A DNA stretch of 64,000 nucleotides from Thermovorax subterraneus (GCA_021608145.1 JAKIHM010000001.1:62001-126000); one strand, 5' to 3'. Shown: positions 5,327-28,217, counted from the stretch's first letter. The notes: generated from the sequence alone by a model not told the origin. Program-made: numbers and translations.

Positions 5327-5890
5327 CTACTTAATAATTCTTACCATATTTTCCCGCCTGGTAGCAGGTTCAGGTATTTCCCCTGCTGCATAGCCCAAAG
5401 TTACGACGAATACCGGTTCATATCCCTCCGGAATGCCTATTTCTTCTCTGGCAAATTTTTTTCCTTCTTCTGTGCCGAAAAATATTTCTGGAGATGCCAA
5501 AAAACAACTGGATACTCCAAGGGACTTTGCAGCGATCAAAATATTTTCAGCTGCTACTGCACAGTCGGCGTATACGAATTTGGATGACTTATCAGCGGAG
5601 ATTATTACTATTGTTGGAGCCCCGTAGAATGCATTAAAATTTGGTTCCTTAGCTCTTTCACTAAGCATCGGGATGTTTTGGTTTATAATCGCTTTTTTTA
5701 TTTCAGAGGAAAGTCTGTCTATTAGATCCTTGTTTTGGATTACGGTAAAATGCCAAGGCTGCCTTCCCATGGCGCTGGGAGCGTACATCGCTGCTTTCAA
5801 TATTAAATCCCTTTCTTCATCCTTTATCTGATCTGGCTTATAGTTTCTTACCGAACGCCTTTCGAGGATATTTTTTATCGTTTCATTCAT
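5327..5890 (-). CDS. Nitroreductase-family flavoprotein
   Basis: A 187-residue FMN-dependent oxidoreductase of the nitroreductase fold. It opens MNETIKNILERRSVRNY with the conserved RRSxRxY FMN-binding motif, followed by APSAMGRQPWHF, and has the C-terminal TLGYAAGE. I chose the ATG at 5890 because GGAGGGAGG lies just upstream; the frame is open further upstream but lacks a ribosome site. It is a single gene, convergent with the hydrolase. The natural substrate (nitro compound, quinone or other) is unknown. Confidence 0.88.
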   Translation of the reverse strand: MNETIKNILERRSVRNYKPDQIKDEERDLILKAAMYAPSAMGRQPWHFTVIQNKDLIDRLSSEIKKAIINQNIPMLSERAKEPNFNAFYGAPTIVIISADKSSKFVYADCAVAAENILIAAKSLGVSSCFLASPEIFFGTEEGKKFAREEIGIPEGYEPVFVVTLGYAAGEIPEPATRRENMVRIIK

Positions 5891-10263: not shown

Positions 10264-11185
10264 GGCAATCGCTATTGGTTATCTTGCTAAAGTTTCGGCG
10301 GGAAACGTAAATGCCTCTCATACTGAAGGCAATGTGGTTGTTGCTAAAAAAATAACGTTGGGGGACGGGAGCACTATCCCTTACGTCTCTGGGCAAGCCG
10401 TAAGGAGGATGTTCCGCGATAGGTTTGAAGATTTAGGCTTCCAGCTTTCGGAGCCTTTTTCGGAAGTAGACGGACAGGAAGTAACGCCGCCTGTACGGCC
10501 GTGGGAATTTATCGATGAAGATCTGTTCGGATATATGGATCCGTCGGGCGGACGTAGAAGGACATCACCGGTGAGAGTTTCTCCGGCAATAGGTTTGTTT
10601 CCTTTCCAGGGCGATAGAGATCTTGGCACCCGTTCTTTCGAGCGTTTCGGGCAGGCTATGTCGGCCGGAGGAAATATGTTCGAAACGGAGATTTATGCAA
10701 ATCTTTTTAAGGGAACGGTTTTGGTGGAATTAGATAGAATAGGCGTATTTAAGCCGATGGAAATAAGCGAAGAAGGTGAGAGGATTCTTCCCGTCGAAGA
10801 AAGAAGAAAGCGGCTGCAAGCTCTTTTAGACGCACTTAATCTTCTATGGGGCGGTGGGCGCACAGCCAGGATGCTAGCCGATCTATCTCCGAAGTTTTTC
10901 GCTTATTCACGACTTAAAGTAAAGCATCCTGTATTTTTAGAGGCCTTTGAAGCTCGTTACGAAGACGGCAAGTATATACTGGAGATTGAACCGCTAAAGA
11001 ATGCCCTTGAGAAATTCAAAGAATATTCAGAGAAAATAATATTGGGAGTAGAACCTGGCATTTTCGGCAATGAGGATCAAATTCATGAAGAACTATCGGG
11101 TTGTGGAAAGATACTTTCCGTGCATGAAGCCATTGCTGAAGCTAAAGGGGATGTGTCGTCATTATGGAAAGAATCCTCAGAATAA
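10256..11185 (+). CDS. cas7: Type I-B Cascade backbone Cas7 (Cst2/DevR family)
   Basis: A 309-residue RAMP protein that polymerises along the crRNA spacer. The N-terminal segment IAIGYLAKVSAGNVNASHTEG and the GQAVRRMFRDRF helix are typical of the Cst2/DevR group, as is the glycine-rich SAGGNMFETEIYANLFKG block. It overlaps cas8b by 8 bases and cas5 by 22, pointing to tightly coupled, stoichiometric synthesis. Confidence 0.94.
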   Translation: MSKAIAIGYLAKVSAGNVNASHTEGNVVVAKKITLGDGSTIPYVSGQAVRRMFRDRFEDLGFQLSEPFSEVDGQEVTPPVRPWEFIDEDLFGYMDPSGGRRRTSPVRVSPAIGLFPFQGDRDLGTRSFERFGQAMSAGGNMFETEIYANLFKGTVLVELDRIGVFKPMEISEEGERILPVEERRKRLQALLDALNLLWGGGRTARMLADLSPKFFAYSRLKVKHPVFLEAFEARYEDGKYILEIEPLKNALEKFKEYSEKIILGVEPGIFGNEDQIHEELSGCGKILSVHEAIAEAKGDVSSLWKESSE

Positions 11186-11880
11186 CGGTAAAGGCACCTG
11201 TCGTGTCGTTCAGGCGTCCCGTGGATCATAATTATCAGAGAACCCTACCGATGCCTCCCCCGACAACTTTAATAGGTCTTGCGGGGGCGGCTTTGGGGCT
11301 TGCCGATTATGAGCTTTGGGGCGAAGGTAGTCCCTTGAAAAGCTTAAAAGTAGCCGTTTTGATGGATAATTGCCCGGGACGCTCGCGGGATATGTGGACT
11401 TTATTAAAAATTAAAGGAAATAAAATGGAAAGATCGCCGTATATGAGGGAACTGCTGTTCTTTGGGTGTTACACTATATTTTACGGTGGGGATGAAACCT
11501 TACTTGAGCAGTTGAAAAGAGCCTTTTTTGATCCTGCGTTCCCCCTTTCTCTGGGGAGAGAGGACGAACTGATTATCATAGATGAAATTTCTATAGAAGA
11601 CGTTAATGAAGGAAATCCGCATTTTAACGGAACTGTAATTCCCGGAGACATCCGGAAAATGAGAATTAAACCCGTATTAAGCCCTGGGGTTAGTGCAGAG
11701 CCGCCGGTAGTTGAAACATTGCCGTTAAGTTTTATAGTAGAGAAAAAAAGAAGAATCCGCCATCCGCATAATCCGGTGATTCTGAGTTTCCTTCCTTTAG
11801 AGATGGAATATGAAGTACAAGAGCCTTCAATACCCGCTTTGCAATACCGTGGGAGGAACTTCACGTGGATGAACTCCTAG
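11164..11880 (+). CDS. cas5: Type I-B Cascade subunit Cas5
   Basis: A 238-residue Cas5 RAMP protein that caps the 5' handle of the crRNA. Its opening, MERILRITVKAPVVSFRRP, with the following LPMPPPTTLIGLAGAALG, is the Cas5 N-terminal signature. The gene overlaps cas7 by 22 bases and cas3 by 16 bases. Confidence 0.93.
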   Translation: MERILRITVKAPVVSFRRPVDHNYQRTLPMPPPTTLIGLAGAALGLADYELWGEGSPLKSLKVAVLMDNCPGRSRDMWTLLKIKGNKMERSPYMRELLFFGCYTIFYGGDETLLEQLKRAFFDPAFPLSLGREDELIIIDEISIEDVNEGNPHFNGTVIPGDIRKMRIKPVLSPGVSAEPPVVETLPLSFIVEKKRRIRHPHNPVILSFLPLEMEYEVQEPSIPALQYRGRNFTWMNS

Positions 11881-14057
11881 CGAAACCAGATGTTACCCTC
11901 GAAGACCATTTGCGATGCGTTTTAAATATTGGAAATGAAATTGCGACCCGAATGAAATTGAATGAGCATTTGCGGACGAAGGCTTTACTTGCATGTGCAT
12001 TCCACGATGTCGGCAAAGCAACCTGGGATTTTCAGGATTACATAAGGGGTAGGCGCAAAAAAGTTTACCCCCATGCTTTAGCTTCATTACCTTTCGTATT
12101 GGTAGCGGAAAGCCTTATGGGACAGAAATTAAAATGGGATCAATTGGATTTTTGCGCCACCGCTGCAGTATTAACACATCATTCTCCGCTAAGCCCCGGA
12201 CTTTACAAAGGTTTCGATACCGTGCCCAATTTTCATCCGCAACTTTCTAAAATTATTAAGGTAATTTTAGAGATGCTTAGGAGTGCTGGCGTTAATGGGG
12301 TTCCCGATGACAAAGAACTTTTATCGATTACACAAAGCCTTACAAAGGATTCTCCTGCTGCAATGCTCGACAATGAGAGGATTCTTCCCAATAAGACGTT
12401 AAGAGGTATATTTAAAGACCTTAAACCGGAGGAATTTGCCCAGATTAAAACGATATTACATATATCGGATTGGCTGGTTTCATCAGGTGAATTCCGCTCT
12501 TCTATGATTTTTTTGGATGGTGGAAGGTCGAAGATTGAATCAAACGTTCGTCGGCGTGAAAAAGAAGAGGGTTTCATACTGCGCGGCTTTCAGCAGCGTG
12601 CGGCAAACAGCGGTTCTGATGTAATTTGGCTTAGGGCTCCGACTGGTTCGGGGAAAACCGAAGCACTACTTCTTTGGGCCGGTGATACAGAGCGACTCAT
12701 ATATCTTTTGCCGACTCAGGCTACGGTAAATGCGATGTGGAAACGAATGCGAAATATTTTTGATGACAAATCGGTAGCACTCGCTCATGGCCGCGCAAGT
12801 TACATTATGCGCAAAGATTTAAATCTAGATGAAGATCCTTTGGATACCCGTTTGTTCGGTTCGGTCTTCGCAAAACCTGTTACGGTGGCAACCATCGATC
12901 AATACATACTGGCCCATCTGAATGGCCGACACTGGGAAGAGCGACGAAGTTTTTCTAGACGAGCAACGGTTATATTAGACGAAATTCACTCTTATGAGCC
13001 TTATACGCTTGGGTTATTGGTAGAAGCTTTGGAAAGAGAAAAACCGTGTCGGCTGGCATTGGCAAGTGCTACATTGCCGCCCGCACTGTTAAATTTATTT
13101 CCGAAAGGAGAATTAATTGAAGCCGAAGATAATCTTTGGCAACGCAAAAGGCATAGATTGAAGCTTCAAAATGATTCGCTAGAAGACGGTTTATCCCTGG
13201 CAATGGATTATGCTCAAAAGGGAGAAAATGTCCTAGTAGTAGCCAATACGATTAGCGATGCGCAGTTGCTTTATAAAAAACTGAAGGAAGAATATGAGTG
13301 GGAAAACTGTTATCTACTTCATTCACGTTTTATTTTCCGCGACAGGCAATTAAAAGAAGAAATGGTGGGGAATCCTCCCAAAGGGACGATCTTCATTTCC
13401 ACTCAAGTGGTTGAAGTAAGTTTGGATATTTCGTATGATGTTCTGATAACAGAAATTGCACCTCTTGATGCTTTAGTTCAACGCTTAGGACGGGTAAATC
13501 GCCGTGGGGAAAAGTTACATTCTCCGGTATTTATTTTTAAGCAATGGAGCAAAGGGTCGGAGCGGATTTACGGCAAGTATGTGCTGGAATTAAGTTTGCA
13601 GCTTTTAGAAAAAATACCGGAAATCCCAACAAATCGCGATTTAGCCGAACTTACTCATACACTCTATGAACAAGTCTTTTCTTCGGATGATTGGAAAAGG
13701 GAATTTTTAGAAGGTCGAAATACCCTTGATGAGGTTCAACGAATTTTGGGATGTTATACAATAAATCTGTCTGATGAAGAGATGCGGGAACGTTTTACTG
13801 CGCGAAGGGGCCATTTGTCGGTAGATGTGATCCCTTCGGGCTATGTACAGGAGGCTTATGAGCTAAAGCAAAAAGAGGAATTCTGGAGATTACCGGAGCT
13901 GTTTGTTCCCGTGCCGATATATTGGTTGAGACAGAGCGAATACTTTGCATTTATAGAAGACCTTAATTGCATTCAGACTACATTAGAATATAGTTCTGAA
14001 TTTGGATTAATGCCACCAAGCCAAGAAAAAAGTAATAGCTTTGTTTTTATTGACTAA
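11865..14057 (+). CDS. cas3: CRISPR-associated nuclease-helicase Cas3
   Basis: A 730-residue Cas3 with both activities in one chain. The N-terminal HD nuclease has FHDVGKAT (about residue 45-52) and downstream histidines in VLTHHSPL. The superfamily 2 helicase has motif I APTGSGKTEALLLW (about residue 257), motif II DEIHSYEP, motif V region VEVSLDISYD and motif VI QRLGRVNRRG. All key residues are present, so degradation of Cascade-bound targets should be intact. It is the last cas gene; the stop is 99 bases from the first CRISPR repeat. Confidence 0.96.
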   Translation: MDELLAKPDVTLEDHLRCVLNIGNEIATRMKLNEHLRTKALLACAFHDVGKATWDFQDYIRGRRKKVYPHALASLPFVLVAESLMGQKLKWDQLDFCATAAVLTHHSPLSPGLYKGFDTVPNFHPQLSKIIKVILEMLRSAGVNGVPDDKELLSITQSLTKDSPAAMLDNERILPNKTLRGIFKDLKPEEFAQIKTILHISDWLVSSGEFRSSMIFLDGGRSKIESNVRRREKEEGFILRGFQQRAANSGSDVIWLRAPTGSGKTEALLLWAGDTERLIYLLPTQATVNAMWKRMRNIFDDKSVALAHGRASYIMRKDLNLDEDPLDTRLFGSVFAKPVTVATIDQYILAHLNGRHWEERRSFSRRATVILDEIHSYEPYTLGLLVEALEREKPCRLALASATLPPALLNLFPKGELIEAEDNLWQRKRHRLKLQNDSLEDGLSLAMDYAQKGENVLVVANTISDAQLLYKKLKEEYEWENCYLLHSRFIFRDRQLKEEMVGNPPKGTIFISTQVVEVSLDISYDVLITEIAPLDALVQRLGRVNRRGEKLHSPVFIFKQWSKGSERIYGKYVLELSLQLLEKIPEIPTNRDLAELTHTLYEQVFSSDDWKREFLEGRNTLDEVQRILGCYTINLSDEEMRERFTARRGHLSVDVIPSGYVQEAYELKQKEEFWRLPELFVPVPIYWLRQSEYFAFIEDLNCIQTTLEYSSEFGLMPPSQEKSNSFVFID

Positions 14058-14156: not shown

Positions 14157-16756
14157 GTTCTAATCGAACCATAGTGGGATTGAAACTCGTGAGATTTTGG
14201 GGTTTAGGAGCGTTAAAACGGGCGGTTCTAATCGAACCATAGTGGGATTGAAACATTAGAAGCAGCAAAAAGATTAGGGGTTAATAAGGACACGGTTCTA
14301 ATCGAACCATAGTGGGATTGAAACGCGCATGAAGCGCTCAGGCGGCATTTCCCCTTTCAGAGTTCTAATCGAACCATAGTGGGATTGAAACGTTCTAACT
14401 GTCTGATAACCGCCTGCTGTCGACGTTGTTCTAATCGAACCATAGTGGGATTGAAACCATCAAGAGCCTTTAGCTCCTCTCTAGTAAACTCAAAGTTCTA
14501 ATCGAACCATAGTGGGATTGAAACAAAAGTGTAGTAGCGGAGGTAATGAGCAAGAGAGACCAGCAGTTCTAATCGAACCATAGTGGGATTGAAACCTGCT
14601 GCCGCTGGCGAAAACTTCGGCACGGTAGCCGGTTCTAATCGAACCATAGTGGGATTGAAACCTGGGCCAGGAATGGGTAGGCGACCCTGAAGCACTGGGT
14701 TCTAATCGAACCATAGTGGGATTGAAACTTAGTAAAAGAGCTTCAAGGCATAAAAGACCCTATGAAGAGTTCTAATCGAACCATAGTGGGATTGAAACCA
14801 GGGCAATGTAACCCGGGAGCAGCTTGCGGTAGTGCTGGTTCTAATCGAACCATAGTGGGATTGAAACCTTTCTGTTATGCCTGCTATGACAGGTAAAACA
14901 TTCTTGGTTCTAATCGAACCATAGTGGGATTGAAACCTTTGATACAGTGCCGAAAGCTCGGCGGTTCTCTGAAGTTCTAATCGAACCATAGTGGGATTGA
15001 AACAAAGATGAAAAAAAGCAGTAAGGGGAACTGGGATTATCGTTCTAATCGAACCATAGTGGGATTGAAACGAGGAGCTGGAAAAATATCGAAGAGGAGG
15101 AGAAAAGAAGTTCTAATCGAACCATAGTGGGATTGAAACGCGGCAGCCTCTCTATGATTGCCCTCTTAATCTCCAAAGGTTCTAATCGAACCATAGTGGG
15201 ATTGAAACCCAAGTAAAACCCAACTCCTTCGGGGGTTGATATGTCCAGTTCTAATCGAACCATAGTGGGATTGAAACTAAGTGGAGGAATTATATAATCT
15301 CTTCCCTCCCAAGTTCTAATCGAACCATAGTGGGATTGAAACTTAGCATACCTATATCAAGCATGTTTATCATTATCCAGTTCTAATCGAACCATAGTGG
15401 GATTGAAACCGTGGTTGACTGTAAAGCTAAGATTATACATTCACAGTTCTAATCGAACCATAGTGGGATTGAAACGAGGCAGGGGCTGAATCTTGTAGTG
15501 AGGCCTCAGGGTTCTAATCGAACCATAGTGGGATTGAAACAGGGAAATTAAATTTAGAGCTTGGGATAAAAGACAAAAGTTCTAATCGAACCATAGTGGG
15601 ATTGAAACGAGAGTGGAAGCTCAAAATGCTCAAGGCAGAACATTCGCCAAGTTCTAATCGAACCATAGTGGGATTGAAACCAGTGATGATGGAATTCATC
15701 TGTAAAAGGTGGAATGTGTTCTAATCGAACCATAGTGGGATTGAAACTGGTATCCACGGGCAACAGATGACGAGAGTTTCATGGTTCTAATCGAACCATA
15801 GTGGGATTGAAACTTAATACTAAACTGTTTACCGAATCTGAGCGTCGAGGTTCTAATCGAACCATAGTGGGATTGAAACTACATCGTAGGGGAGGCGTAG
15901 GGTGATTCTTTTTACAGTTCTAATCGAACCATAGTGGGATTGAAACGGTATAGACATGATACAACTTTACCGAACCCTTACCTTGTTCTAATCGAACCAT
16001 AGTGGGATTGAAACAAATAAGCACTTATCTTGGGGTGCCCGAACAGCTCGCAAGTTCTAATCGAACCATAGTGGGATTGAAACTGCGTATATGGTTTTTA
16101 GCCCCGACTTCCTCCGCTTCGTTCTAATCGAACCATAGTGGGATTGAAACTAATCTCTTTGAGCAATTCTTCCATGCTTAATCCATAGTTCTAATCGAAC
16201 CATAGTGGGATTGAAACCTGGAGAGGACGATATGGGAAGTAACAATCAATTATCAGGTTCTAATCGAACCATAGTGGGATTGAAACTCTGGTTCACCAGA
16301 GGCACTTATGAACTTGCATCCAGTTCTAATCGAACCATAGTGGGATTGAAACCTATCGGGCGATTTGCGGACCTGGTAAGTGACTGCGGTTCTAATCGAA
16401 CCATAGTGGGATTGAAACTTTAGGTGGCAATATGACGGTTTCAGGTTTTGTAGAAGTTCTAATCGAACCATAGTGGGATTGAAACGGTTTTTGGGCAGTC
16501 CAGGCTGTGGTTAGCAACCGGCGCGTTCTAATCGAACCATAGTGGGATTGAAACTAGACGATGAGCAGGTAGCTATTAAAGGGATGGTGAGTTCTAATCG
16601 AACCGTAGTGGGATTAAAACACTTTATTCTAGATGAGAACACAACTAAACGGTTTAGTTTTAATCAAACCTTAACGGGATTGAAACATTTAGGAATAGCG
16701 ATAGCTTGCAAAAGTTTTCAGAAATGGTTTTAATCGAACCATGGTGAGATTGAAAC
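14157..16756 (+). CRISPR. CRISPR array, 39 repeats of 30 bp and 38 spacers
   Basis: The repeat begins GTTCTAATCGAACC and ends GTGGGATTGAAAC. Repeats 1-36 (14157 to 16554) read as identical; repeat 37 (16591-16620) has two changes, repeat 38 (16657-16686) several, and repeat 39 (16727-16756) several. Spacers are about 35-42 bp. The GTTC and GAAC of the repeat can pair around TAATC, and the ATTGAAAC end is the usual type I-B crRNA handle. New spacers should enter at 14157 next to the leader, so the 16.6-16.8 kb end is oldest. The apparent antisense reading frames encoding FNPTMVRLE repeats are artefacts of the repeat. Confidence 0.98.
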
Positions 16757-18357: not shown

Positions 18358-18372
18358 TTCAATTTAGGTGTA

Positions 18373-18539
18373 GCTAGAAATACCGCTGAGAGCGTCTCCC
18401 AGACCGAGGGATTAAATCGGTCAAACGTATATTGGGTTCATGATGAACCAGCAGGAATGGTGAAAGGGCATTGCGTATTGAGCACATGTGTATCGTGCAT
18501 AGTGCAAAGAGTACTACCTGGCGCTGGCGGTATTATAGC
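18373..18539 (+). ncRNA. Candidate cloverleaf-like non-coding RNA downstream of DIP1984 gene
   Basis: The ends pair as GCTA+AATACCGC (18373-18386) with GCGGTATT+TAGC (18527-18539), 12 bp with a small internal loop. Inside, in order, are GAGA-GCG-TCTC (18388-18398), GACCGA/TCGGTC with a 9-base loop (18402-18422), GGTTCA-TGA-TGAACC (18435-18449), and CCAGC/GCTGG with inner AGG/CCT (18448-18527), which encloses GCAC/GTGC (18482-18498). No protein-coding frame fits. The layout of closing stem plus three short arms recalls a tRNA-like domain, as in bacterial Y RNAs, but anticodon and T-loop consensus are absent. Identity unknown. Confidence 0.4.
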
Positions 18540-18622
18540 GAGGGTGGGACAGAGGGATACGATTAAAATAGCACATTTGGTGGATTTTCAAGAACATAAA
18601 AATTTAAGATAAACTTCTCCTA

Positions 18623-18652
18623 TTGACAGTAATCCTTATGTTTTGATATAAT
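18623..18652 (+). promoter_or_regulatory. Sigma-A promoter for the riboswitch operon
   Basis: TTGACA (18623-18628) and TATAAT (18647-18652), both perfect consensus, with 18 bp between. The transcript would begin near 18660, about 30 bases before the c-di-AMP aptamer. Confidence 0.85.
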
Positions 18653-18684
18653 ATCCTTTACCAATAAAATACGCATCAATCTGG

Positions 18685-18845
18685 AACGCTGAATTCCTTC
18701 CGTGGCATTTGCCGCGGAGGGAAGCGGGGGACCCACTTTTTTGGGGTGAATCCCCTTCTTATATGGGGGACGTTCCTGTATTAAGAAGGGGTAGGGTTAC
18801 CTCTTCAACCCGAACCCGTCAGCTAACCTCGTAAGCGTGGAAAGA
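18685..18845 (+). promoter_or_regulatory. Cyclic di-AMP riboswitch (ydaO/yuaA leader)
   Basis: The conserved blocks of the ydaO-yuaA class appear in order: GGAGGGAAGCGGGGGACCCA in the first arm, GGGGTGAATCCCC, the variable hairpin around TCTTATATGGGGGA, GGGGTAGGGTTACC, and the hallmark CCGTCAGCTAACCTCG followed by GTAAGCGT. Members of this class bind cyclic di-AMP and normally shut off genes for potassium or osmolyte uptake and cell-wall remodelling. A terminator follows at 18882, so control by premature termination is expected. Confidence 0.93.
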
Positions 18846-18881
18846 GGAGGTTGATAGCTTGAGGGTTAGTCCGCCCAAAAT

Positions 18882-18914
18882 AAGCTATGGTCCTCCATAG
18901 CTTTTATTTTTGTG
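18882..18914 (+). terminator. Riboswitch expression-platform terminator
   Basis: AAGCTATGG (18882-18890)/CCATAGCTT (18895-18903) with loop TCCT, followed by TTATTTTTG. Upstream bases GATAGCTTGAGG can compete for the same strand as an antiterminator. It lies 30 bases before the first structural gene. Confidence 0.85.
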
Positions 18915-18943
18915 GGAAATATAAATACAGGGGGGTGACGTTT

Positions 18944-20077
18944 ATGATAAAAAGACCGGAAAAAGTAAAGTATGCAGTTATAGGTGCTGGCAACGGCGGG
19001 CTTGCGATGGCGGGGTATTTGGGACTGATGGGCTTTACGGTGGTGCTTTACAATAGAACTATAGAAAAAATTAAGACCTTAGTAGAAAAACCGGAGATAA
19101 TGCTCACCGGTGCTGTGGAGGGCGTAGGTAGGCTTTCCACCGTTACGGATAATATAAAAGAGGCAGTCAAAAATTCCGATATTATAATGATAACGACTCC
19201 AGCAACCGCTCACAGGGAACTTGCCAGAATGATGGCGCCTCATCTTGATGACGGCCAGATAATAGTATTAAATCCTGGAAGGACCTGCGGAGCGCTGGAG
19301 GTCTACCAGACCCTTCGAGAGGCAGGATGTGAAAAGGATATTACTGTGGCGGAGGCGCAGACTTTTATATACGCCTGCAGAGCAACGGGACCAAATAGTG
19401 CAAAGATTTTTAGCGTTAAAAACGAGGTTAAACTGGCTGCAATTCCGGCAAGCAGGACAGAATACGTGATTTGGCTTTTGTCTTGTGCTTATCCACAGTT
19501 TAAGCCTGCTAGAGACGTGATGGAGACTAGTTTAAATAATTTCGGTGCAATATTCCATCCTGCTCCGACGCTGTTAAACAGCGGACATATAGAACGGGGT
19601 CAAGCTTTTGAATACTATCTCGAAGGAATCACGCCGAGCATAGGCCAGATGCTGGAGAGGCTTGATGCTGAAAGGATGAAGGTCGCAAGGCTACTGGGTG
19701 TGAAGACCATGTCCGCTGTGAAGTGGCTAGAAGAATCTTATGGAGCCTGCGGAAATTCAATATACGAAGCTATACAGAATAATCCAGCTTATAAAGGTCT
19801 TACGGCGCCAAAAGATTTAAAAACTAGATACATCTACGAGGACGTACCTTTCAGCCTAGTTCCCATTGCTTCACTTGCAAAAAATATAGGAGTTGAGACT
19901 CCGGCCATAGATACAATAATTAGACTTGCCAATATGATGACGGGCGAGAACTTCTGGGAAACGGGAAGGACTGTCGAAAAGCTAGGGCTTGCGGGGCTTT
20001 CTCCGTCCCAGATAATAGAATTCGCTCAGCATGGATACGTTGACACTGCCAAAACCGGTGAGGAGGTGGTTGCATAA
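18944..20077 (+). CDS. NAD/NADP octopine/nopaline dehydrogenase-family protein
   Basis: A 377-residue opine-dehydrogenase-like oxidoreductase. The N-terminal Rossmann fold has VIGAGNGGLAMAGYLGLMG (residues about 12-30), followed by TTPATAHREL and NPGRTCGALE, and the C-terminal helical domain contains ETSLNNFGAIFHPAPTLLN, the opine dehydrogenase signature with its catalytic histidine. Such enzymes reductively join an amino acid to a 2-oxo acid. ATG 18944 follows GGGGGTGACG; the frame extends upstream into the terminator without a ribosome site. Its stop overlaps the next start (20077), so it is coupled to the B12-domain protein. Being under a c-di-AMP riboswitch suggests an osmolyte or cell-wall amino acid role; that is inference. 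Confidence 0.85.
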   Translation: MIKRPEKVKYAVIGAGNGGLAMAGYLGLMGFTVVLYNRTIEKIKTLVEKPEIMLTGAVEGVGRLSTVTDNIKEAVKNSDIIMITTPATAHRELARMMAPHLDDGQIIVLNPGRTCGALEVYQTLREAGCEKDITVAEAQTFIYACRATGPNSAKIFSVKNEVKLAAIPASRTEYVIWLLSCAYPQFKPARDVMETSLNNFGAIFHPAPTLLNSGHIERGQAFEYYLEGITPSIGQMLERLDAERMKVARLLGVKTMSAVKWLEESYGACGNSIYEAIQNNPAYKGLTAPKDLKTRYIYEDVPFSLVPIASLAKNIGVETPAIDTIIRLANMMTGENFWETGRTVEKLGLAGLSPSQIIEFAQHGYVDTAKTGEEVVA

Positions 20078-21723
20078 TGGCGAAGATCCTTGGTGCTACA
20101 ATAGGCAATTGTGTGCACGTGGCAGGTGTGATGAATTTCCTTTCGCTCGCAGAAAGAGAAGGATACGAAGTAGAGTTTTTAGGCGCAGCTGTTAAAATAG
20201 ACGAACTTATCGCTGCTGTAAAGGAAAGTAGACCTGACTATGTGGGCTTGAGCTACCGCCTCACGCCGGAGCCTTTGAGGGAGATATTGAAGGAGTTAAA
20301 AGAAAAAATAGAGTCTTCGGGTATTGATAAAGGGATCAAGTGGATATTTGGAGGGAATGAGCCAACTGCTCAAGTTGCAGAAGAAAGCGGCATATTTTAC
20401 AAAGTATTTAACGGGCTTGAGGATATCGATGACGTAATAGGATTTCTAAAAGGTTACAGGCATTCAAAAGAAGAAAATTACCCCCAGGATTTAATTTCGC
20501 GGATAGAATCCAAATATCCGTATCCGATTTTAAGGCATCATCTCGGCTTGCCGACCCTTGAGGCAACAATAGAAGCTATCAAAAAGGTTTCTGAAGCAAA
20601 GGTCCTAGACGTAATTTCTATTGCCCCAGACCAGAACGCCCAGGAATTTTTCTTCGAACAGCATAAAATGGACAGAAGACTTGATGGGGCAGGAGGCGTT
20701 CCGCTTAGGAAAAAAGAAGATTTCGAAGCCCTTTACGAAGCCTCGCGCCGTGGGAATTATCCGTTACTCCGTTGCTACAGCGGAACCACTCATCTCATCG
20801 AGTTTGCAGAGCTTTTGCAGGAAACCATAAAAAATGCCTGGTGCGCTGTTCCGCTTTGCTGGTACAGCGCCCTGGACAAAAGAAGCTCCAGGCCTCTCAG
20901 GGAAGCGATAAAGGAAAATCAGAAAGTGATGAAATGGCACGGTGAGAGGGGCATTCCTGTTGAGGTAAATGAATCTCACCATTGGAGCCTTAGAGACGCC
21001 CATGATGCAGTGGGAGTTGCTACAGCGTATTTGGCAGCGTACAATGCCAAAAAGATGGGCGTAAAGCACTACATTGCCCAGTACATGTTCAACGTCCCGC
21101 CATCGCTTTCGCCTAAGATGGACCTTGCTAAAATGCTGGCAAAAATCGAGCTTATTGAATCACTTCAGGATGATAACTTCAAAGTTTACCGCCAAGCTAG
21201 AGCCGGCCTTGCCAGCTTCCCAGGGGATCTTTCTCAGGCCAAAGGGCAGCTTGCGTCATCAGCATACCTTGCCATGGCGATAAAACCGCACATTTACCAC
21301 GTGGTAGGTTTCTGTGAAGCTCATCACGCAGCAACTGCCGAGGACATTATCGAAAGCTGTAAGATTGTGAGAGGCGTTATAAGGAATGCCTTCTTGGGGC
21401 TGCCTGATATGGTAAATGATCCGGTGGTGCAGGAACGCAAGAATCAGCTTATAAAAGAAGCTATGGTCATATTAGACGCCATAAAACAGCTAAATCCCAA
21501 TGTAGAGGACCCGCTTTCCGATGCGGATACCATTGCAAAAGCCATAGAGCTAGGCATTCTGGATGCTCCGCACCTCAAAGGCAATCCGGCAGCTTGCGGA
21601 AAACTAGTTACGAGAATGGTGAACGGTGCTCTATATGCTTACGACCCAGAAGAGAACAAGATTCTGACCGAAGAAGAAAGGATAGAAAAAATATTTAAAA
21701 GGGCACAGCTTACTGTAATCTAA
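20077..21723 (+). CDS. Cobalamin-binding-domain protein with mutase-like C-terminal part
   Basis: A 548-residue protein. Residues 1-130 form a B12-binding Rossmann-like fold: GNCVHVAGVMNFL has the H and G of the DxHxxG motif (H14, G17), but Cys12 stands where the Asp should be. The sequence continues with FLGAAVKIDEL, YVGLSYRL and FGGNEP, matching the usual B12-domain strand order. Residues about 150-548 resemble the large catalytic barrel of glutamate-mutase-like enzymes, with LLRCYSGTTHLIEF and VNESHHWSLRDAHDAVGVATAY. I cannot name the reaction. It shares a transcript with the opine-dehydrogenase-like gene, and the two probably act in one pathway. Confidence 0.7.
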   Translation: MAKILGATIGNCVHVAGVMNFLSLAEREGYEVEFLGAAVKIDELIAAVKESRPDYVGLSYRLTPEPLREILKELKEKIESSGIDKGIKWIFGGNEPTAQVAEESGIFYKVFNGLEDIDDVIGFLKGYRHSKEENYPQDLISRIESKYPYPILRHHLGLPTLEATIEAIKKVSEAKVLDVISIAPDQNAQEFFFEQHKMDRRLDGAGGVPLRKKEDFEALYEASRRGNYPLLRCYSGTTHLIEFAELLQETIKNAWCAVPLCWYSALDKRSSRPLREAIKENQKVMKWHGERGIPVEVNESHHWSLRDAHDAVGVATAYLAAYNAKKMGVKHYIAQYMFNVPPSLSPKMDLAKMLAKIELIESLQDDNFKVYRQARAGLASFPGDLSQAKGQLASSAYLAMAIKPHIYHVVGFCEAHHAATAEDIIESCKIVRGVIRNAFLGLPDMVNDPVVQERKNQLIKEAMVILDAIKQLNPNVEDPLSDADTIAKAIELGILDAPHLKGNPAACGKLVTRMVNGALYAYDPEENKILTEEERIEKIFKRAQLTVI

Positions 21724-21737
21724 ATATAAATAAAGAG

Positions 21738-21768
21738 AAGCCGACCTTGATTAAGGTCGGCTTTTTTG
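21738..21768 (+). terminator. Terminator of the riboswitch operon
   Basis: Perfect 11-bp stem AAGCCGACCTT/AAGGTCGGCTT with loop GATT, then TTTTTG. Confidence 0.9.
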
Positions 21769-21894
21769 ATTTTTTAAGTTAAAGCAAGACGTCGCCTTCA
21801 ATTAGGTCTTCGACGGGGACACTAGTTACTACTCTGTCGCTTAGGATTTCCACTTCGGCGGTATTGTCTTCAGGCTTTAGAGATATGGGGGAGC

Positions 21895-21946
21895 GCGAGG
21901 GGGCATATATCCCCTCAATTTATTGAGGGGATATATGCCCCCTCGC
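21895..21946 (+). repeat. Left-end hairpin, perfect 24-bp inverted repeat
   Basis: Arms 21895-21918 and 21923-21946 are perfectly complementary (outer part GCGAGGGGGC/GCCCCCTCGC, inner part CCCCTCAA/TTGAGGGG) around TTTA. The inner 8-bp stem and loop recur at the right end. It should be the subterminal structure recognised by TnpA on single-stranded DNA, although it is far longer than usual. Confidence 0.85.
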
Positions 21947-22002
21947 CCTAGCATTTACAACCGTTGCGCAGTATGTTACCATAATGGCATAAAAAAGAAA
22001 GA

Positions 22003-22374
22003 TTGGAAATCAACCACTTTGTATGGTCAACGAAGTACCGCCGCAAGGTATTGTTACCACCAGTGAACGAAACCCTGAAGGGAGCAATTACTTCTCTTTG
22101 TATGAAACATGGCTACGAACTATTGGCCTTGGAAGTTATGCCTGACCATGTACACGTTTTTCTCTCCGCCCCTCCCCAAATAGCTCCGGCAGTAATCGCC
22201 AAGGTGCTGAAAGGTTCTACGGCCCGCACTCTTTTTGTGAAGCATCCGGAACTCAGAAAAAAGCTCTGGGGCGGCCACCCGTGGAACCCGAGCTACTACG
22301 TGGGCACGGCTGGGCAGGTTTCCAGCGAGACCATCGGGCGGTACATTGAAGCTCAAAAAACAGAGGGAGGGTGA
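22003..22374 (+). CDS. tnpA: IS200/IS605 transposase TnpA (Y1 HUH)
   Basis: A 123-residue single-strand transposase. The HUH motif is in MPDHVHVFLSAPP (about residue 46-58) and the nucleophilic tyrosine in SSETIGRYIEAQ near the C-terminus. The chain begins at TTG with EINHFVWSTKYRRKVLL; relatives have about 10 more residues before this point and an in-frame stop at 21982 excludes a longer start, so the N-terminus is short. GGHPWNPSYYVGT is well conserved. Both catalytic parts are intact, so it may still be active. Confidence 0.92.
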   Translation: MEINHFVWSTKYRRKVLLPPVNETLKGAITSLCMKHGYELLALEVMPDHVHVFLSAPPQIAPAVIAKVLKGSTARTLFVKHPELRKKLWGGHPWNPSYYVGTAGQVSSETIGRYIEAQKTEGG

Positions 22375-22378
22375 TTGA

Positions 22379-23611
22379 GTGCCTCTAATCACACTCAAAG
22401 CCAAAATCCATGCAGACCCCCAGACTGAAGCTGTTCTGAAGGATGCCATGTTCTGTGCCACCAAAGTTTACAACGGCCTTCTGTGGCATCTGCGGAAAGA
22501 GCACAAGGAAACCGGGAGAGTAGATATTTCCCGAAAGAACCTCAACCGCATCTTAAAGGAACTGCCCAGGGCCAAAGGGTACTACTCGATGTCAGTGCAA
22601 CTCACCCGAGACGAAGTACGGGAAGCCTATAAGTCTTTCTTTGCCCTCAAGAAAAAAGGTCTTACACAACACGAAGCTCCCGGATTCCGCCGGAAGGGTC
22701 AGCTTTCGCCACTTAAGTACGTGCAGAGCGGATTCAAAGTAGAAGGGGATAAAGTTACATTGAGCCTGGGCACCAGCCGGGAAGACGGCATAAAACAGGT
22801 CACTTTCCGCATATCTCACCGTCCCGGTGTGGAGTACGAACGGGTGCGGGAACTTTCCATTGCCTACGACAAGGTTTCCGGGCGAATAGAAGCCCGTCTG
22901 GTGGTGGAAGTCAAGACCCGTGAAAACAGCGGGACGGGGAGAGCAGCGGTAGACCTTGGGGAGACGATCCTCATGGCCTGTGCATTTGATGATGGCACGG
23001 TAATGCTCTACGCCGGCAGGCAGATTAAAGCCATAAGGCGGTACTGGCAGAAGGTCCGTGCCGGCTTGAAGCAGAGTTCACGCAGATGGAGGCAGATATC
23101 ACACCGGGAGAAGAAGCAGGTAGAGCACCTACTGCATGTAGCCACATCTCACTTTATTGCGGAGTGCGTACGGAAAGGTGTGAAGGAAGTAGTTGTTGGC
23201 AATCTTGACGGCATTCGTGAAAGTATCGACTATGGGAAACGGCTAAACCAGCGGCTACATGCTTGGCCGTATAGAAAACTGATCGATATGTTGAAGTATA
23301 AAGGAACCCTAGCGGGGATAATAGTCCGTGACGATGTAGATGAGAATAGCACGTCCATTACCTGCCACGCCTGCGGGAAGGTTGTAGCTTCAAACCGGAT
23401 ACACCGGGGTCTGTATGTATGTTCCTGTGGCTGGAAAGCCCAAGCAGACGTAAATGGTGCCCTGAACATCTACGAGAAGGCGTATAAGGTATCTCCCGTG
23501 AAGGGGAGTAGTGGCCGTGTGGCGCGGCCCGCGGTTGTGTCATACCAGTTGGGATGGCACGGCGTCGCTGAACCGAAGCGCGAGGGTAAACCTTTGCGTG
23601 CATCCGCATGA
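22379..23611 (+). CDS. tnpB: TnpB-like RNA-guided nuclease (IS605 OrfB)
   Basis: A 410-residue TnpB. It has the N-terminal helix-turn-helix region, RuvC motif I AAVDLGETILMACAF (about residue 193), the zinc finger CHACGKV...YVCSCGW (about residue 332-350) and RuvC motif III QADVNGALNIYEK. At RuvC motif II, where many TnpBs have a Glu (VVxE-N/D-L), it reads VVVGNLDGIRESIDYG with Gly, so the acidic ligand must come from elsewhere (E in GIRE or VDENSTS) or be lost. It starts at GTG 22379, 4 bases after tnpA. TnpB cuts DNA next to a short TAM with an omega RNA made from the 3' end of this gene. Confidence 0.9.
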   Translation: MPLITLKAKIHADPQTEAVLKDAMFCATKVYNGLLWHLRKEHKETGRVDISRKNLNRILKELPRAKGYYSMSVQLTRDEVREAYKSFFALKKKGLTQHEAPGFRRKGQLSPLKYVQSGFKVEGDKVTLSLGTSREDGIKQVTFRISHRPGVEYERVRELSIAYDKVSGRIEARLVVEVKTRENSGTGRAAVDLGETILMACAFDDGTVMLYAGRQIKAIRRYWQKVRAGLKQSSRRWRQISHREKKQVEHLLHVATSHFIAECVRKGVKEVVVGNLDGIRESIDYGKRLNQRLHAWPYRKLIDMLKYKGTLAGIIVRDDVDENSTSITCHACGKVVASNRIHRGLYVCSCGWKAQADVNGALNIYEKAYKVSPVKGSSGRVARPAVVSYQLGWHGVAEPKREGKPLRASA

Positions 23612-25606: not shown

Positions 25607-26734
25607 TCAGCACAGCGGAGATTCGTTAAAGAGGCTGGCCCGGGATGAAGTGTCGAGGATTTCGTTTAGAATAGGTGAAAGCTTTTCGAAATCTACCAGA
25701 AAAGCATCGTGGCCCTGGTAGGATTCTATTTCCCTGTATTCTCCATAACCGCCTGCGGTATTTAACTGCTTAATAAAACTTCGAAGCTCATCAGGCGGAT
25801 AAAGCATGTCGGTATCTATGCCAACCATAAAGACCCTTGCCTTGATGCGCTTCAAGGCTTTCTCCAGGGAACCGTAGGGCTCAGCTATATTGTGCCTGTT
25901 CATAGCTTTTACAAGGCAAAGGTAAGTGTTTGCATCGAATCTTTTTACAAAAGATTCTCCGTGGTATTCTAAATAACTTTCTGCCAAAAACAGTCCTTTT
26001 TCTGCATCCATATTTCTCGAAAATCTTCTTTTGAAAAGTTCGTGGCTCTTATAGGTGAGAGTGCCGATCATCCTTGCCAATGAAAGCCCTCTTACAGGTT
26101 GGCCTAGTGAATAATAATTTCCGTTTCTCCAGGACGGGTCGTTTTCAATAGCTTTTATACCTACATAGTTGAACGCAATAGCCAAGGGGGAAAGCTCGTG
26201 AGTTGCAGCTATTGCAACAACTGTTTCTACAGAATCGGGGAAGGTTACGGCCCATTCAAGGGCCTGCATACCTCCTAAAGACCCGCCAATAGCCATCTTC
26301 AATTTTTCAACTCCAAGGTAATCAAGCAGAATCTTTTGCAGTCTTACCATATCCCGTATATTTATAGGAGGGAAATCATTGCCATAAGGATTTCCAGTCT
26401 TCGGGTTGATGGATGTCGGGCCTGTAGTTCCGTAGCAGCTTCCCAGTATGTTTGAGCATATAATGAAATATTTGTTCGTATCCAGTGCCTTTCCGGGGCC
26501 TATCAGCGGGTCCCACCAGCCGGGCTTGGGGTCCCGGCTGGAATACATCCCCGCAGCGTGAGCATCACCTGTTAAGGCGTGCAACACTAAAATGGTGTTG
26601 TCCTTTTTTCTGTTCAAGTTGCCGTAAGTTTCGTAAGCCACCTGAATAGCATCGAAAGTATATCCGCTTTCGGTGCTGAATTGAATTTCATCTTTTGTAA
26701 AGCGAAAAAAGCGTTTTTTTACGAGCATGACCAT
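25607..26734 (-). CDS. metX: Homoserine O-acetyltransferase
   Basis: A 375-residue alpha/beta hydrolase-fold enzyme that acetylates homoserine with acetyl-CoA. Seen are YETYGNLNRKKDNTILVLHALTGDAHAAG (split here: YETYGNLN, LVLHALTGDAHAAG), GPGKALDTNKYFIICSN, the nucleophile elbow GGSLGGMQALEW and the C-terminal catalytic GHDAFLVDF. It lies 20 bases downstream of metY in one operon, so its product feeds the sulfhydrylase directly. Control is by the S-box riboswitch at 28100-28217. The first codons (MVMLVKKRF) offer two starts. Confidence 0.95.
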   Translation of the reverse strand: MVMLVKKRFFRFTKDEIQFSTESGYTFDAIQVAYETYGNLNRKKDNTILVLHALTGDAHAAGMYSSRDPKPGWWDPLIGPGKALDTNKYFIICSNILGSCYGTTGPTSINPKTGNPYGNDFPPINIRDMVRLQKILLDYLGVEKLKMAIGGSLGGMQALEWAVTFPDSVETVVAIAATHELSPLAIAFNYVGIKAIENDPSWRNGNYYSLGQPVRGLSLARMIGTLTYKSHELFKRRFSRNMDAEKGLFLAESYLEYHGESFVKRFDANTYLCLVKAMNRHNIAEPYGSLEKALKRIKARVFMVGIDTDMLYPPDELRSFIKQLNTAGGYGEYREIESYQGHDAFLVDFEKLSPILNEILDTSSRASLFNESPLC

Positions 26735-26754: not shown

Positions 26755-28032
<1,278 letters not shown>

Positions 28033-28099: not shown

Positions 28100-28217
28100 C
28101 TCTTATCTCTCAAAACGCGTTTTAGCGTTTTGCAGGAATTGGCACCTTCGCGCTTTTATTAAAGACGCGGGTTGCCGGGCTTCATCGGGCCAGTCCCTCC
28201 ACCACTCTTGATAAGAG
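28100..28217 (-). promoter_or_regulatory. SAM-I (S-box) riboswitch
   Basis: Read on the minus strand: CTCTTATCAAGAGTGGTGGA, GGGACTGGCCC, GATGAAGCCCGGCAACC, AGGTGCCAATTCCTGC, and a closing strand GAGATAAGAG that pairs with the first bases. These are the conserved S-box blocks in order. S-adenosylmethionine binding should favour the terminator at 28057-28091 and switch off metY-metX. Confidence 0.97.

Follow-up and report, generated by a model that had tools for sequence, protein, structure and literature searches.

Cyclic di-adenosine monophosphate (c-di-AMP) riboswitches turn off osmolyte and potassium functions in the absence of osmotic distress. One charge-reduced osmolyte, N-acetylglutaminylglutamine amide, is synthesized by an AsnO-like amidotransferase together with an ATP-grasp ligase. 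In Dehalobacter sp. CF, a c-di-AMP (with Na+) riboswitch controls the lysine-2,3-aminomutase for N-epsilon-acetyl-beta-lysine, terminating transcription in vitro ahead of the aminomutase gene (PMC9337991). Control of osmolyte biosynthesis by this riboswitch class was therefore already known, and the first-pass annotation of the DNA described here was too narrow in holding that ydaO-type (c-di-AMP) riboswitches normally act on potassium and osmolyte transporters or wall enzymes. We analysed a 64,000-nucleotide stretch of the Thermovorax subterraneus genome (GCA_021608145.1 JAKIHM010000001.1:62001-126000; hereafter the window), in which a c-di-AMP riboswitch precedes two overlapping genes, termed A and B, that encode an opine-dehydrogenase-family enzyme and a predicted B12-type mutase. 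This locus resembles the Dehalobacter system in combining a c-di-AMP riboswitch with a mutase and in its link to Na+ sensing. It differs in that the mutase is of the B12 type rather than a radical SAM enzyme and has an opine dehydrogenase and ligases as its partners, and in that Na+/Li+-type and c-di-AMP RNAs are found on A-B loci of separate species rather than in tandem. We propose, with somewhat more confidence than doubt, that A-B is the core of a c-di-AMP-repressed pathway for an amino-acid-derived compatible solute.

Linkage and shared regulation of A and B

A promoter of the form TTGACA-18-TATAAT precedes the operon (Table 1), and the aptamer that follows matches the RF00379 covariance model over its full length (model positions 1-134 of 134; E 5.8e-24; gathering cut-off 38 bits). 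Downstream lies a terminator stem of nine pairs (18882-18903) followed by TTATTTTTG; folded in isolation, this stem has an energy of -13 kcal/mol. Because AUAGCUU, just beyond the aptamer, can pair with AAGCUAU in the 5' arm of the terminator, the leader is most naturally read as an OFF switch, and we infer from the predicted folding that c-di-AMP turns the operon off. Gene A (377 amino acids) starts at an ATG preceded by GGGGGG, within a mechanical open reading frame (ORF) that begins at 18887, and overlaps gene B (548 amino acids) by one base at TAATG. The operon closes with a hairpin at 21738-21762, AAGCCGACCTT-GATT-AAGGTCGGCTT, after which a T run follows. The promoter, ydaO aptamer and terminator leading into two overlapping genes are thus as the first-pass annotation had described them.

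A scan of 84,980 species genomes for relatives of B found at least 565, of which the best 80 were kept as named loci. By tblastn, 78 of these 80 have A upstream of B on the same contig; the spacing is at most 140 bases in every linked locus except L130, where three genes intervene, and the two loci without A comprise one at a contig end (L093) and one whose genome carries A elsewhere (L075). Clustering of ORFs gave a linkage of 87/96, because the clustering hid A in some GC-rich loci. Carriers of the pair include Bacillota, Halanaerobiales, Bacteroidales, Armatimonadetes and several archaeal metagenome-assembled genomes (MAGs), the records named as archaea being L102, L110, L120, L126, L129 and L131; many of the loci are draft MAGs, and organism names are those given in the records. 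The A-B association recurs across bacteria and archaea, which bears out the earlier expectation of a gene pair shared with other genomes. In the literature we found no c-di-AMP riboswitch associated with an opine dehydrogenase or a glutamate mutase; an earlier mention in published gene lists is possible.

The regulation recurs as well. With a locus riboswitch model built from 18 leaders, a c-di-AMP aptamer is detected in 44 of the 80 A-B loci, placed ahead of either A or a unit of ligase, A and B (in L115, where A was only partly recovered, the riboswitch distance is 672 bases). The Rfam model itself finds a c-di-AMP riboswitch in all of the first scanned same-order loci (19/19), so that the ydaO assignment holds both at this locus and upstream of the pair elsewhere. 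One Thermoanaerobacteraceae MAG (L106) has two c-di-AMP riboswitches in tandem (5497-5620 and 5760-5886) ahead of A-B. The host genome encodes a diadenylate cyclase and has exactly two c-di-AMP riboswitches, one before A-B and the other before an ATP-grasp gene. In four further genomes (G005, G007, G009 and G011), the riboswitch on A-B is the only one found, and where A and B lie apart (G022 and G025), it remains with A. Across 20 genomes we counted 34 riboswitches that score above cut-off; 22 of them stand ahead of A-B, A, the ATP-grasp gene or an asparagine-synthase-like gene, a fraction that is not general because the genomes were chosen as carriers of B (G046 excepted). The remainder lead into genes of other kinds, among them wall genes and an OpuC-like transporter; in a relative (G015), one such riboswitch lies on an ABC transporter operon whose resemblance to OpuC was assigned from sequence only.

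A second class of regulatory RNA is associated with the same genes. In a Desantisbacteria MAG (L108), whose A-B locus is without a c-di-AMP RNA, nhaA-I (Li+/Na+) RNAs at 5763-5816 and 10456-10508 precede A-B and an asparagine-synthase-like gene, and behind each come a GC hairpin and a T run that form a terminator. As nhaA-I variants bearing terminators sense Na+ (PMC9646797), these two RNAs are candidates for Na+-II riboswitches. In this MAG, therefore, A and B stand under an alkali-ion-type RNA without a c-di-AMP RNA.

Enzyme families of the pair and its partners

Gene A belongs to PF02317 (cut-off 30 bits), with a Rossmann domain and an Octopine_DH helical domain. Its best solved relative is N-(1-D-carboxylethyl)-L-norvaline dehydrogenase (CENDH, 1bg6), which scores 297 bits with the single sequence and 404.6 bits with a 38-member profile and aligns over the full length. 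Five residues (His205, Arg295, Tyr296, Glu299 and Asp300) show no variation among 38 homologues, and His205 and the RY..ED motif containing Asp300 line up with the HP and ED motifs found in CENDH (1bg6) and octopine dehydrogenase (3c7a). From established knowledge of CENDH and octopine dehydrogenase, we take His205 and Asp300 to be the catalytic positions. Gene A accordingly encodes a member of the CENDH/octopine-dehydrogenase family that retains the catalytic His/Asp and is predicted to form opines; it differs from CENDH in being nearly always beside a B12-type mutase and under c-di-AMP control.

Gene B is a single chain in which a B12-binding domain of ~110-130 residues (PF02310, 54.8 bits vs 32.1) comes first and a barrel (residues ~140-548) follows. 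In the domain search, no family scored above its cut-off over the barrel, Pfam MutE reaching 23.1 bits vs 26.6. The structure model (mean predicted local distance difference test score, pLDDT, 93.4) matches glutamate mutase E best (6h9e_B and 1cb7_B; Foldseek E 3.9e-18; template modelling (TM) score 0.66 on the target), the next nearest solved structures being lysine 5,6-aminomutase and ornithine 4,5-aminomutase, and profile-profile comparison against 24 MutE proteins points to the same fold (E 9e-7). Glutamate mutase (MutS/GlmS plus MutE/GlmE; 1cb7, 6h9e) likewise combines a B12-binding domain with a barrel, but gene B is one fused chain, usually has Cys in place of the Asp of the B12 motif, and is without the MutE signatures QPRAG, YTRQN and RHGTPD, which align with HLG, NAQ and YSGT. 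In an alignment of moderate certainty, MutE R66, R100 and R149, the Arg claw that binds glutamate in that enzyme, fall opposite His155, Gln189 and Tyr234. Since these substrate signatures are replaced, gene B is best called a separate family of adenosylcobalamin (AdoCbl) mutase type, widespread in bacteria and archaea, for which sequence and structure model predict mutase activity.

The B12 motif of gene B reads CVHVAG, with Cys12 where DxHxxG has Asp, so the strict motif is absent, as had been noted at first pass. The accompanying suggestion of altered or lost cobalamin use fared less well as regards loss: Cys12 is family-wide (49 of 52 homologues), Asp takes its place in the remaining members (L085, L106 and L049, the last reading DAHTLG), and His14 and Gly17 are present in all 52, which together make lost cobalamin use unlikely and led us to reject it. 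A gene for MutL, of the glutamate-mutase-type reactivase family, adjoins A or B in three loci (L039, L041 and L101). An apparent second B in Halanaerobiales loci proved by sequence to be a Crp-type regulator.

The host has its second c-di-AMP leader ~138 kb beyond the window. This leader, with its terminator, is nearly a copy of the first, and its riboswitch lies ~90 bases ahead of the ATP-grasp gene, which resembles D-Ala-D-Ala ligase (Ddl). In two Tissierellia-type loci, L063 and L067, orthologues of this gene (65-68% identity) lie directly upstream of riboswitch-A-B, and other lineages have related Ddl-like genes (29-38%) within the A-B unit; divergent Ddl-like genes beside A in L057, L059, L061 and L087, at 26-28% identity, were not counted as the co-regulated ligase. 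Asparagine-synthase-like amidotransferase genes adjoin A-B in unrelated lineages (Thermoanaerobacter, Bacteroidales and archaea), and in two genomes (G006 and G012) extra c-di-AMP riboswitches lie ahead of such a gene.

Features of the operon and its surroundings

Table 1. Coordinates of operon features within the window and the evidence for each.
Feature	Position	Strand	Evidence
Sigma-70-type promoter, extended TG	18623..18652	+	12/12 consensus positions
c-di-AMP riboswitch aptamer (RF00379, ydaO/yuaA)	18677..18851	+	105.1 bits; aligned with aptamers of relatives
Predicted antiterminator strand AUAGCUU	18854..18860	+	Folding; putative switch role
Intrinsic terminator of the riboswitch expression platform	18882..18908	+	z -4.3; near-identical in the genome's second c-di-AMP leader
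Gene A, CENDH/octopine-dehydrogenase family	18944..20077	+	PF02317, 166.8 bits; invariant catalytic residues
Gene B, B12-binding domain and MutE-like barrel	20077..21723	+	Domain search, structure model, profile comparison
Terminator hairpin ending the operon	21738..21767	+	Read from sequence

Upstream, the interval 18358-18600, between a DIP1984-family ORF and the promoter, is non-coding, and no Rfam family scored above cut-off there. The operon is directly followed by an IS200/IS605-type element (22003-23611; Y1 transposase and TnpB-like OrfB), preceded by a long palindrome at ~21900-21950; the element may have split a minus-strand gene with its 3' end at ~21780-21890. Elsewhere in the window, a S-adenosylmethionine (SAM) riboswitch (28100-28217, minus strand, 98 bits) lies upstream of two ORFs (26755-28029 and 25607-26734) that resemble a methionine-biosynthesis pair, and minus-strand repeats at 14729-14989, encoding FQSHYGSIRT and resembling an array of clustered regularly interspaced short palindromic repeats (CRISPR), have a Cas3-like ORF nearby (11865-14057).

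A proposed compatible solute and competing explanations

In the pathway that we propose, high c-di-AMP, as in potassium-replete cells free of osmotic distress, would fold the aptamer and terminate the leader, and falling c-di-AMP would allow transcription to read through into A and B. B, as an AdoCbl-dependent mutase with a glutamate-mutase-related fold, would rearrange an amino-acid skeleton; A, as a CENDH-type opine dehydrogenase, would join an amino group to a 2-oxo acid to yield a secondary-amine dicarboxylate; and the Ddl-like ATP-grasp ligase, with an asparagine-synthase-like amidotransferase in many relatives, would amidate or couple the product and thereby lower its charge, as in the synthesis of N-acetylglutaminylglutamine amide. 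The order in which B, A and the ligase or amidotransferase would act is a guess, and the substrate of the mutase and the opine product are likewise conjectural. A charge-reduced, amino-acid-derived solute fits because a mutase, an opine-type dehydrogenase, an amino-acid ligase and an amidotransferase share one signal. Regulation and gene content together best fit a compatible solute of opine-like type, amidated or peptidyl, whose synthesis is off at high c-di-AMP, and the pair probably makes a solute protecting against osmotic stress.

Several observations weigh against this proposal. In about half of the A-B loci no c-di-AMP riboswitch was detected, and in a Bacillota MAG (L084) a fluoride riboswitch (RF01734, 5685-5746, 50.3 bits) lies directly upstream of A-B, occupying the site where relatives carry the c-di-AMP riboswitch. 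MutL was not found in two A-B carriers (G009 and G012), nor was an asparagine-synthase-like gene found in the host genome. Where that gene is present, it scores as plain asparagine synthase and falls well below the trio_amidotrans cut-off (TIGR03104, 233 bits vs 570); the A-B set therefore shares with N-acetylglutaminylglutamine amide synthesis the logic of a ligase and an asparagine-synthase-like amidotransferase but differs in the type of amidotransferase, in adding an opine dehydrogenase and a mutase, and in having no acetyltransferase that we could see. Finally, RlpA-like wall genes also lie behind c-di-AMP riboswitches in these genomes, and a wall-related product would also suit the Ddl-like ligase, the Mur-ligase-like gene after B in L045 and the dapF near B in G022.

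These last points underlie the main rival, in which A, B and the ligase make an unusual building block of the cell wall or envelope and c-di-AMP adjusts the wall, the classical c-di-AMP riboswitch targets including wall enzymes. Against it, A-B occurs in archaeal-named records, and to our knowledge archaea lack peptidoglycan; the host has a separate and stronger Ddl elsewhere (264 bits vs 106 for the co-regulated gene); Na+/Li+-type RNAs precede the same genes in L108; and the linkage to a Mur ligase does not recur among clustered neighbours. We regard a wall product as unlikely, while giving it real weight. The first-pass annotation had left the choice between a compatible solute and a wall precursor; the former is now favoured because of the second ligase, the asparagine-synthase-like amidotransferase, OpuC in a relative and the Na+/Li+-type RNAs in another phylum.

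The remaining explanations concern the chemistry of A or B. Judging by their names, most carriers are anaerobes, and A keeps the catalytic residues of opine dehydrogenases; both would suit an opine-forming NADH sink in fermentation, comparable to that of anoxic invertebrates, fed by B and with the c-di-AMP link secondary. In several genomes, nevertheless, c-di-AMP riboswitches have A-B and the ligase as their only or principal targets, and an ATP-consuming ligase and an amidotransferase point to a product that the cell keeps, so that such a sink seems improbable. It is only slightly easier to doubt that B is the ordinary glutamate mutase of methylaspartate fermentation and A a functionally unrelated neighbour: the nearest fold and the adjacent MutL in a few loci speak for this very improbable reading, and plain glutamate mutase was rejected for B on the sub-threshold Pfam score and the missing MutE signatures. 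True MutE genes, moreover, exist separately in G005 and G049, the linkage of A to B is close to invariable, and no methylaspartate ammonia-lyase or separate MutS or MutE gene recurs beside B among selected annotated and clustered neighbours. Opine dehydrogenases also make metallophores of the staphylopine and pseudopaline type, but we saw no recurrence beside A-B of a nicotianamine-synthase-like gene, an exporter or a metal regulator, A is nearest to CENDH, and control is by c-di-AMP or Na+/Li+ RNAs; a metallophore is accordingly a far-fetched product for this operon.

The compatible-solute proposal can be stated more broadly, and then somewhat more tentatively, at slightly under even chances: a previously undescribed solute pathway, spread among anaerobes of both bacteria and archaea, whose enzymes, a new family of fused AdoCbl mutases and a CENDH-type dehydrogenase, would make an opine-like compound, finished by a Ddl-like ligase or an asparagine-synthase-like amidotransferase and controlled by c-di-AMP riboswitches in bacteria and Na+/Li+-type RNAs in at least one lineage. 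With four enzymes, one signal and culturable carriers (such as Thermoanaerobacter and Tepidanaerobacter), the regulon opens the question to direct test. If the proposal is correct, it would add a new osmolyte chemistry and a new B12 mutase family, offer a case of a riboswitch regulon defining a whole pathway, and account for the role of the c-di-AMP riboswitch in genomes where the A-B operon is the only target found.

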